Source of the DNA: Pseudomonadota bacterium
Lineage (GTDB): Bacteria; Desulfobacterota; Desulfobulbia; Desulfobulbales; Desulfocapsaceae
Length of the DNA stretch: 64,000 nt
Assembly: GCA_018821985.1 (NCBI GenBank)
Contig: JAHJKP010000033.1
Location: 1 to 64,000, forward strand
Direction: 5' to 3'
The translations under genes were made by a program, and so were the position numbers. Each line of letters starts with the position of its first letter. Within the stretch, counting starts at the first letter, position 1. Below are positions 41,720 through 46,050 of this stretch, in pieces. The notes under the pieces are model-generated. The model saw nothing but the letters and a program-made list of their open reading frames with translations, did not search any database and was not told the DNA's origin.

Positions 41720-42019
41720 ATGATGCAGGATAGTGAGTTAGGGCGTCTTGAGAATTTTGTTTCCAAGCTGCTGGACAGATTTAATGCCTTGCAGGCAGAG
41801 AAAAAGAGAGTTGACGAGTTGTTGTTGCAACGGGAGGAGACAATTGCAACGCTGCAGGACGAGTTGGCCTCTCTCAAAGATGAAAGAGGGGAGATCAGCA
41901 ACAGGGTGTCTGGGCTTTTGGATCGTATTGAAGAATGGGAGGCGGGCGATATGGAGAGTGGAGATGCCGGTAAGACCAGTCGTAATGCTGAGGGTGGTGT
42001 GCAGGGCAGTCTTTTTTAA
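41720..42019 (+). CDS. ZapB-like coiled-coil protein
   Basis: A 99-residue acidic protein, nearly all coiled coil over residues 5-70 with heptad Leu (LENFVSKLLDRFNALQAEKKRVDELL) and a Gly/Ser tail. It directly precedes zapA by 67 bases. ZapB is a short coiled coil that binds ZapA at the Z-ring. The size, coil and place support a ZapB-like role, but the sequence itself is not diagnostic. Confidence 0.6.
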   Translation: MMQDSELGRLENFVSKLLDRFNALQAEKKRVDELLLQREETIATLQDELASLKDERGEISNRVSGLLDRIEEWEAGDMESGDAGKTSRNAEGGVQGSLF

Positions 42020-42086: not shown

Positions 42087-42392
42087 TTGGAAAGGCTTGT
42101 TCGGTTTCAGCTTTTAGGTCAGGAGTATACTTTTTATACCGGGGCTCCAGAGAGTGAGGTGGCAGATATCCTTGATCTCGTGAAAGAACTGGTAGAGGAA
42201 AATATGTCTGGAAGTGCGGGAACGATACCGGTGAGCAAGGTGGCTGTGTTAGTAAGTTTGAATATAGCATCCAGGTATTTTGAACTAAAGTCTAAATTTG
42301 ATATATATAGAGCAGACACAGAGCAGAGGATAAGCAGCTTGACAAAGCAGATTGATTCGGGGCTTTCTCCAGAAAAAGGAGAGGAGGGTTGA
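42087..42392 (+). CDS. zapA: Cell division protein ZapA
   Basis: A 101-residue FtsZ-ring-associated protein that stabilises FtsZ protofilaments. It begins with the TTG at 42087 (MERLVRFQLLGQEYTF), after a G-rich stretch at 42076-42080. The beta-strand start, the conserved ALVSLNIASRYFELK helix block and the coiled C-terminus match ZapA. It follows the ZapB-like gene and precedes the 6S RNA, the arrangement seen in many proteobacteria. Confidence 0.85.
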   Translation: MERLVRFQLLGQEYTFYTGAPESEVADILDLVKELVEENMSGSAGTIPVSKVAVLVSLNIASRYFELKSKFDIYRADTEQRISSLTKQIDSGLSPEKGEEG

Positions 42393-42490
42393 TAATTCTC
42401 TTTTGTTTGCTCAAAATTCTGCTATAGTTGGTTGTAGTCGATGAGTATTGTGAAATTTGCTTTCTGTAGAATGGTTTTTGTTAAAAATCT

Positions 42491-42666
42491 GTTTCCCTGC
42501 CCTGTTGGTGATCTTCAGAATGTTGAGCCAACTCTCACAAAAAGGGTACCTCCTCTGTTTTCGAAAAGAAGATTGCTTAGCACTCTTCCGGATGAGAATA
42601 TGAGTTTGCCCACCTATTTAATAGGTTTAATCATCCTGTAGACACGGCAGGGTGGGGATTTTTTAT
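42491..42666 (+). ncRNA. ssrS: 6S RNA
   Basis: Regulatory RNA that binds the housekeeping RNA polymerase. The closing stem pairs 42494-42504 (TCCCTGCCCTG) with 42648-42658 (CAGGGTGGGGA), 11 consecutive pairs counting two G-U. Between them are the TTGAGCC element typical of the 5' side of the bubble, a small hairpin ACCTAT-TTA-ATAGGT (42612-42626) matching the 3'-side bubble hairpin of known 6S RNAs, and a T tract (42659-42664). The total of ~175 bases is right. Position downstream of zapA is the classic 6S location. Confidence 0.82.
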
Positions 42667-43191
42667 TCTCGGGATAATATATGTTATTCCGTTTTTTATA
42701 TCCAGGGCGCTTTGGGAAAGAACTTGTTGAGTCATTGTAGATAGTGGCCAATGGAGACTGAGGCGAGTTGACTGGAATTCATCAGCAAAATTATTGATTG
42801 CAGATGGAATGACGCTGAACAAGATTACGAAATTCGGGAAGAAAAACTGCGTTTATATTCTCAGTCACTGCTGTAGAGGAAATTTTATTTTTTGCAAAAT
42901 CCTCTGAGCTGTGGGCTGGTTTCATATGGAAAATTTAGTATTCATCTCCCCTGATTCAGGGTGTTGCCGACAGGCGTTGCGTGATTCAGGTACGAATGTG
43001 ATTGTCTGGATATTAAATTCTGTGATAATTTTACAGAGTTGACTGCTACTGGTCCCCCTGGATCTTTGTTGCTGCTTTGATCGCCCCCACTTTCGTTTTT
43101 TTGTTTCTCTTCTGCGGTACGGTACTTGTATCGTCTGCTGTCATGTTCCTTTCCTGCTTAATCAGATATTGCCTACCAGGATTAGAGTGTT
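42667..43191. other. Intergenic region between 6S RNA and rny
   Basis: About 525 bases with no supported gene. In many proteobacteria a 5-formyltetrahydrofolate cyclo-ligase gene follows 6S RNA, but no such ORF is visible here. Small open frames lack good starts. It likely carries the rny promoter. Confidence 0.5.
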
Positions 43192-44757
43192 ATGGAGATA
43201 TTTAATCAGTCAGTTTTACTGTTACCCATTGGGTTACTGCTTGGCATAATAGGCGGTTTTCTTATAAGAAAACGCTTTGTTGAGAACCATCGGGCCAACA
43301 TAGAAAGCCAGGGGAAACAGCTTATCGAGAATGCTATTCTTGAAGCGGAGCGCATCAAGAAAGAAGCTGTGCTGCAAAGTAAAGAGGCTGTATATCAACT
43401 GAAACAGGCTGTTGAAGAGGAAATCCGGGCTGATAAGGCCGATCTGAAAGATGAAAGACGGCAGCTCAGTGAGAAAAAAGAGCAGTTGAAAAGAGAAGCA
43501 GAGAGCCTAGATAAACGACAGAATGAAATTCAGAACGGTGAGATGCGGCTGCGACAGCAGGAAGAGGGCTTGCAGAAAAAAAATAATGAGGCGGAGCAAC
43601 TGGTATTCCGTCAGCGTGATGAGCTGGAGAAGATAGCAGGGATCAGTCGGGAAGAGGCAAGAAAGTTGCTCATGGATTCAATGGAGAGTGAGGCGCGCAT
43701 GCATGCCGCCAAAAAACTTGCTCGCATTGAAAATGAGATGAAAATGGAGGCCGACAAAAAAGGCAAGAATATCCTGGCCCTTGCCATCTCGCGATATGCC
43801 GGCGATTATGTCGCCGATAGAACCGTTTCTATGGTTCCTCTGCCTAATGATGAGATGAAAGGCAGGATCATCGGGCGTGAGGGGAGAAATATTCGCGCCA
43901 TTGAGGCTGCCACCGGTATTGACATCATCATTGACGATACCCCGGAGGCAGTCATTCTTTCAGGATTTAATCCGGTACGACGCGAGGTCGCCCGTCTTGC
44001 CCTGCTACAGCTTATTAATGACGGTCGTATACATCCGGCCCGTATAGAAGAGGTGGTTGCCAAGGTTACCAAGGAACTTGAGGTTAGCATGCGGGAGGCT
44101 GGAGAACAAGCCACCTTTGATGTGGGTGCCCATGGGGTTCATGTGGAGTTGATTAATCTCCTTGGCAGGTTGAAATTTCGAACCAGTTATGGCCAGAATG
44201 TCCTTCAGCATTCCCTGGAGGTGGCATTCCTTTGTGGCATTATGGCAGCAGAGTTGGGTATTGATGTGAAAATGGCCAAGCGGGCTGGTCTGCTTCATGA
44301 TATCGGCAAGGCTGTTGATCATGAGGTGGAAGGATCACATGCGATCATTGGACGTGACTTGGCTAAGAAATATGGAGAGCCTGAGGAAGTGGTGTACGCC
44401 ATTGGCGCTCATCATGAAGACCTGCCGCCGCAAAGTGTCCTTGATATCCTGGTACAGTCGGCCGACGCCTTGTCCGGTGCCAGGCCTGGCGCTCGGAAAG
44501 AGATGCTGCAGACCTATGTCAAGCGGCTGGAGGATCTTGAAAATATAGCAAACGCATTTGATGGTGTTGAAAAATCATACGCTATTCAGGCAGGACGTGA
44601 TTTGCGAATCATTGTTGATGCCAAAAAGATTCAGGATGCAGAGGCCATTCTCTTGAGCCAGGATATTGCTAAAAACATTGAGGCGCAACTGACCTATCCT
44701 GGACAGATACGGGTCACAGTGATTCGAGAGACCAGGGCCGTAGAGTTTGCCAGATAG
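43192..44757 (+). CDS. rny: Ribonuclease Y
   Basis: Membrane-anchored endoribonuclease that starts mRNA decay, 521 residues. An N-terminal helix ([17 protein letters not shown]) anchors it; a long coiled coil follows to about residue 200. The KH domain has [19 protein letters not shown] (near 224) and the HD domain has [15 protein letters not shown] (near 367). Usual length. It is followed after 81 bases by tyrS. Confidence 0.96.
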
Positions 44758-44838: not shown

Positions 44839-46050
44839 ATGCCTTCCATTGATGAACAGATAAAACTTATTGAGCGGGGAGTCGTTGATTGTATTTCCCG
44901 CGAAGAACTTGTTAAAAAACTGGAAAAATCTGCGGCAACCGGAATTCCGCTGCGGGTGAAGGCTGGTTTTGATCCAACTGCTCCTGATCTGCATCTGGGC
45001 CATACTGTCCTGTTGCAGAAATTGAAACATTTTCAGGATCTTGGCCATGATGTGTACTTCCTGATCGGTGACTTTACCGGTATGATCGGTGATCCGACAG
45101 GCAAGTCTGAGACCCGCAAGGCCCTGACCCGTGAGGATGTGGCCAAAAATGCGGAAAGTTACAAGGAACAGGTTTTCAAAATCCTTGATCCTGAAAAAAC
45201 CAAGGTTGTCTTTAACAGTCAGTGGCTTGCTGAGCTTGACTCCTTTGCCATGATCAGGCTTGCCTCAGAACTTACCGTGGCCAGGATGCTGGAACGGGAA
45301 GATTTCAAGGTTCGTTTCAGGGAGGGAACTCCTATCTCTATCCATGAGTTTCTCTATCCGCTCATCCAGGGCTATGACTCGGTGGCCATCCAGGCGGATG
45401 TGGAACTTGGTGGCACGGACCAGCTTTTTAATCTGCTCATGGGGCGCGATCTCCAGCGTTCTCGTAATCAGGCCCCCCAGGTGGTACTCACCCTCCCCCT
45501 TCTTGAGGGTTTAGATGGGGTGAATAAGATGAGTAAGTCTCTGGGAAATTATATCGGCATTACTGAGTCAGCCAATGATATCTACGGCAAGATCCTTTCC
45601 ATTTCTGATCAGTTGATGTTCCGTTATTATGACTTGCTCAGTGATCTGGGCACGGAAGATGTGGCCGTCTTGAAGAAAGAAATGGAAAGTGGTGCTCGCC
45701 ATCCCAAGGAGATCAAAAAACAGCTGGCCAGGGAGTTGACGGCACGTTTTCATTCAGAAGAGGCGGCCTTGCAGGCAGAACAGAATTTTGAAAAAGTCTT
45801 CCAGAAAGGTGGGCTGCCTGATGATATTCTGGAGAGGCAGGTCGCAGCCACTGAAGACATATGGCTTCCGCAGTTGCTGGTTGATGTGGAGCTTGTTGCA
45901 TCCACATCAGACGGACGGCGGATGATCAAGCAGAACGCTGTTTCTCTCAATGGAGAAAAGGTGACAGATGTTAATGCGCTGGTGAAACCCCAGGGTGAGG
46001 TGTTGCTGAAAGTGGGGAAGCTGCGTTATTGTAAAGTTTGTTTTCAGTAA
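44839..46050 (+). CDS. tyrS: Tyrosyl-tRNA synthetase
   Basis: Class I aminoacyl-tRNA synthetase of 403 residues. HLGH (residues 52-55) is the HIGH motif, KMSKS (about 230-234) the second signature; a C-terminal S4-like domain ([14 protein letters not shown]) binds t[16 protein letters not shown] groups it with the longer TyrRS branch. It ends in a shared hairpin with the convergent fur gene. Confidence 0.96.

Follow-up and report, generated by a model that had tools for sequence, protein, structure and literature searches.

The stretch of DNA analysed here (the window, 64,000 nucleotides) comes from a Desulfocapsaceae bacterium and contained a full-length match to the 6S RNA family between zapA and rny, in the gene order zapB, zapA, 6S RNA, rny and tyrS (Table 1). 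The host, a relative of Desulfocapsa, is a sulfur-cycling bacterium; among named rny loci, the nearest were those of Desulfocapsa sp. and of Desulfocapsaceae MAGs, with 97-98% protein identity. 6S RNA is a small RNA by which RNA polymerase is shut down when cells are at rest; members of the family are abundant RNAs of about 160-200 nt, often with a peak in stationary phase.

Table 1. Genes and RNA features at the 6S RNA locus, in window coordinates
Feature	Position	Strand	Evidence
zapB, upstream neighbour	41720-42019	+	PF06005, E 6.3e-9, over cut-off
zapA (TTG start), immediate upstream neighbour	42087-42392	+	PF05164, E 1.3e-12, over cut-off
Candidate 6S promoter, CTTTTG-17-TATAGT, extended -10 TGCTATAGT	42400-42428	+	Conserved motif; putative promoter role
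6S RNA (ssrS)	42491-42662	+	RF00013, 64.9 bits (gathering cut-off 46.4); order-level model R1, 176.1 bits (this sequence belongs to the R1 training set)
Closing stem, 5' arm	42494-42507	+	Minimum-energy fold, covariation
TTGAGCC, 5' central bubble motif, putative template region for pRNA	42523-42529	+	Pairs with GGTTTAA 42624-42630 in minimum-energy fold
Apical (internal) arm, putative contact region resembling a -35	42544-42611	+	Double changes at 18 pairs in helices 4-6
3' central-bubble hairpin ACCTATTTAATAGGT	42612-42626	+	4 core pairs 100% paired
Closing stem, 3' arm	42645-42658	+	Helix 1 pairs in 92.3% of cells; double changes at 7 pairs
T-tract after closing stem, first terminator-like end	42659-42664	+	Terminator-like site 42631-42655 plus T-tract
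Second terminator-like hairpin CGGGATAATATATGTTATTCCG + TTTTTT	42670-42698 (hairpin to 42691)	+	Genus-conserved, compensatory changes
rny (RNase Y), downstream neighbour	43192-44757	+	PF12072, E 1.3e-45, plus KH and HD domains
tyrS, next gene in conserved order	44839-46050	+	PF00579, E 2.5e-85

When the whole window was compared with all Rfam families by cmscan, the only match above a gathering score was to RF00013 (E = 1.4e-10), and the alignment covered model positions 1-187 of 187. The initial annotation had placed a 6S RNA at 42491-42666 and had proposed a search with the Rfam 6S covariance model as one way to refute it; that search found the RNA at 42491-42662 with a score well over the curated cut-off, and the assignment was correct. 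The element is 172 nt long, which fits the family size, and a search of the whole genome showed it to be present in a single copy.

The predicted fold of the RNA had an energy of -61.5 kcal/mol, compared with -42.7 ± 3.8 kcal/mol in 200 dinucleotide shuffles, none of which was as stable (z = -4.9). A closing stem had been recognized in the initial annotation and was present, but in the minimum-energy fold it consisted of 14 contiguous pairs (42494-42507 with 42645-42658) rather than the 11 described. The central TTGAGCC, the small hairpin on the 3' side and the T tract that had been noted were all found.

Conservation of the structure was evaluated by aligning 51 homologues found in the order and counting the alignment against both fold states. 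For the first state, the share of paired cells was 87.2%, versus 43-47% when slid by 1-3 columns. This state had 32 pairs with double changes (shuffles, 25.0) and a covariation score of 0.315 (shuffles, 0.167); none of these three values was reached in any of 500 shuffles, a control that overstates significance because the alignment includes close relatives, while the slid controls are free of this fault. The rod, made up of the closing stem, central bubble and apical stem-loop, and the 3' hairpin were thus supported by covariation. Helix 3, the pairing of TTGAGCC with GGTTTAA, was formed in 93.7% of cells and showed a double change from U-A to C-G in 10 sequences. In the ACCTATTTAATAGGT hairpin, two pairs beyond the core were doubly changed in 21 and 16 sequences, respectively. 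The motifs GCC, AGGG, CCCACCT and AGGTT were invariant across all 51 sequences. Both the hairpin core and the central helix claim the two G of AGGTT, so that a local exchange between the two states is possible. The family identity and the structure of this 6S RNA were both demonstrated by the analysis.

Directly after zapA, the sequence TTCTGCTATAGT at 42417-42428 forms an extended -10; a spacer of 17 bases separates its TATAGT from a conserved upstream CTTTTG. This motif, the -35 of which is weak, was found ahead of the 6S RNA in all 17 loci from the same genus, and many loci of the family had a looser version, with 22 to 173 nt between it and the RNA. It occurred once in the window, where 0.15 occurrences were expected with one mismatch. 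Because relatives differ in the distance between motif and RNA, the 5' end of the 6S RNA is uncertain, and the mature RNA probably arises by 5' trimming of a precursor. The precursor is predicted to start near 42435. At the other end, the closing stem with its T-tract, followed by the second hairpin, looks like a terminator.

The initial annotation had described this as the classic zapA location, which was right, as the gene directly upstream of the 6S RNA encodes a PF05164 protein. It had further remarked that the usual 5-FCL gene was missing and that rny followed instead. This is true of the locus, but the oddity that it implied did not hold up, since 6S RNA followed by rny is standard in the phylum. 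A 6S RNA was identified by Rfam in 53 of the 58 relatives, and in two more with R1. In two of the remaining three (G022 and G049) the contig carrying rny ends about 300 nt or less upstream of rny, and in the third (G056) neither 6S nor rny was found; these absences are best read as a matter of assembly, from contig ends or incomplete genomes. In all of the loci examined in the order, the 6S RNA was followed by rny, with a gap of 331-1035 nt, and 5-FCL was present in none of these gaps. A second check was anchored on rny and independent of 6S anchoring, though some contigs were shared with the first set: 76 of 80 named rny loci had a 6S match of 113-178 bits upstream of rny. The other four (L163, L183, L189 and L219) had less than 270 nt of sequence upstream of rny; the 6S RNA was just before rny in 76 of the 76 with enough upstream sequence. 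In the phylum sample, rny was downstream and on the same strand in 82 of the 90 6S loci, and 14 of these 82 had 5-FCL between the two. These counts indicate that 5-FCL is an optional or variable part and that the 6S-rny order is old. In other words, zapA-6S-(5-FCL)-rny is the phylum-wide order, and the synteny may serve as a marker for finding weak 6S genes.

These results can be compared with reports that ygfA (5-FCL) adjoins 6S in only some δ-Proteobacteria (PMC9130861) and can be missing from zapA-6S arrays (PMC7641849). In the open literature searched, a scope without Barrick 2005 and Wehner 2014, the 6S-rny linkage was not mentioned. The 5-FCL gene was not near the 6S locus; the single copy in this genome is on another contig (G000:C47:18303-18845). 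A remnant of 5-FCL in the 6S-rny gap was also considered and rejected: an HMM built from 15 FCL proteins, 14 from phylum loci and one from the source genome, had no match in any of the order's gaps, its only matches being in the 14 phylum loci that carry the gene.

The strong match to the 6S model, the terminator-like end and second terminator-like hairpin before rny, the length of the gap, and the 14 phylum loci in which 5-FCL intervenes all argue against the element being a structured leader or cis-element of the rny mRNA that resembles 6S RNA by chance, an explanation that we consider very improbable even though rny follows on the same strand in every locus examined in the order and nearly always in the phylum. 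It is harder still to credit that the element is a pseudogene of 6S RNA or a degenerate duplicate, as its Rfam score of 64.9 bits, below that of many phylum members (up to 124.8), might suggest, because there is no other 6S RNA in the genome, the invariant motifs are all kept, the helices are intact through compensation, and the whole order scores in the same range. The locus is almost certainly a canonical 6S RNA gene (ssrS), predicted to encode a promoter mimic that is released by pRNA synthesis. The finding itself is correct but ordinary, with a neighbourhood that is normal for the phylum; it gives the Desulfocapsaceae a confirmed 6S RNA with structural support, a new member of a known family.

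Members of the 6S family mimic an open promoter, block sigma70-RNA polymerase, and are released when pRNA is synthesized and the bubble refolds (PMC8876501). Given family membership and the intact elements, a similar mechanism may be proposed here, and from knowledge of the family we infer that the RNA is expressed, binds RNA polymerase and serves as a template for pRNA. Transcription of ssrS would begin at its own extended -10 promoter just past zapA, giving a primary transcript that would carry a leader about 55 nt long and end at the closing stem and T-tract, and this precursor would be trimmed to the RNA of about 172 nt. The rod with its central bubble would mimic an open promoter and, in non-growing cells, would bind and block the housekeeping sigma70-RNA polymerase. 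The polymerase would then copy the 5' bubble into a short pRNA, leading to release of the 6S RNA; the pRNA would displace the TTGAGCC:GGTTTAA pairing and free the GG for the 3' hairpin. By analogy with U44 of E. coli, the pRNA probably starts near C42532, with an expected 5' sequence of 5'-GUUGGCUCAAC.

The position of the 6S RNA before rny is inherited within the phylum, and a functional role for it is only a possibility. It seems rather unlikely that the linkage is functional, with RNase Y trimming the 6S leader or turning over 6S:pRNA hybrids, or with readthrough from the 6S gene coupling rny to the growth state. The question of whether 6S RNA is processed by RNase Y could be addressed at this locus.

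In size, this RNA agrees with the E. coli 6S RNA and with RF00013. It also shares with them the rod built of closing stem, central bubble and apical arm, the GAGCC motif at the centre, the 3'-bubble hairpin and the upstream zapA. It differs from E. coli in that rny rather than ygfA is downstream, and in that the 3'-bubble hairpin has about 6 pairs, compared with 9 reported for E. coli (PMC8876501). The architecture is also that of B. subtilis 6S-1, and the predicted pRNA starts with G, as in 6S-1 (PMC8876501), whereas the genomic neighbours are different. The zapB-zapA-6S order with an optional ygfA is shared with the zapB-zapA-ssrS-(ygfA)-EVE arrays of β- and γ-Proteobacteria, but those arrays end in EVE, while here the order runs on into rny-tyrS (PMC7641849).

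Several other observations were made on the 6S loci and the sequences around them. One genome of the phylum (G114) had three 6S matches (L131, L141 and L142), none of them followed by rny. The G008 draft genome had two 6S copies (C60:1-170 and C70:431-603), one of which was at a contig end; this may be a case of assembly duplication. In Desulfobulbaceae UBA2276 (L027:1501-1622 in G013, the same as L153, DDWW01000008.1), a 6S RNA of only 122 nt was found in the normal place, with the apical arm reduced to a 5-pair hairpin (GGGTA...TACCC) and the rest intact. Since artificially truncated B. subtilis 6S-1 RNAs keep working in vitro (PMC8876501), this could be a natural mini-6S; it could also be an assembly error.

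The 6S-rny gap (42663-43191 in the window) is long for a bacterial intergenic region in every relative from the order, with no evident gene. Within it, a block at 42695-42870 was strongly conserved in all 17 genomes of the genus and was not found in other genera at the level of blastn. The block was rejected as a small protein, as 33 of 300 column shuffles reached its codon-substitution score and the reading frame was broken in two loci (L034 and L044). It was likewise rejected as a structured RNA: it can be folded, but its covariation equals that of shuffles (0.154 vs 0.152). In L034, the block was interrupted by an insert about 80 nt long that carried a long inverted repeat (AGATTATTTTCTTG/CAAGAAAATAATCT). 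A sequence matching this insert was present upstream of the 6S RNA in L041; together these look like a mobile repeat of the MITE type.
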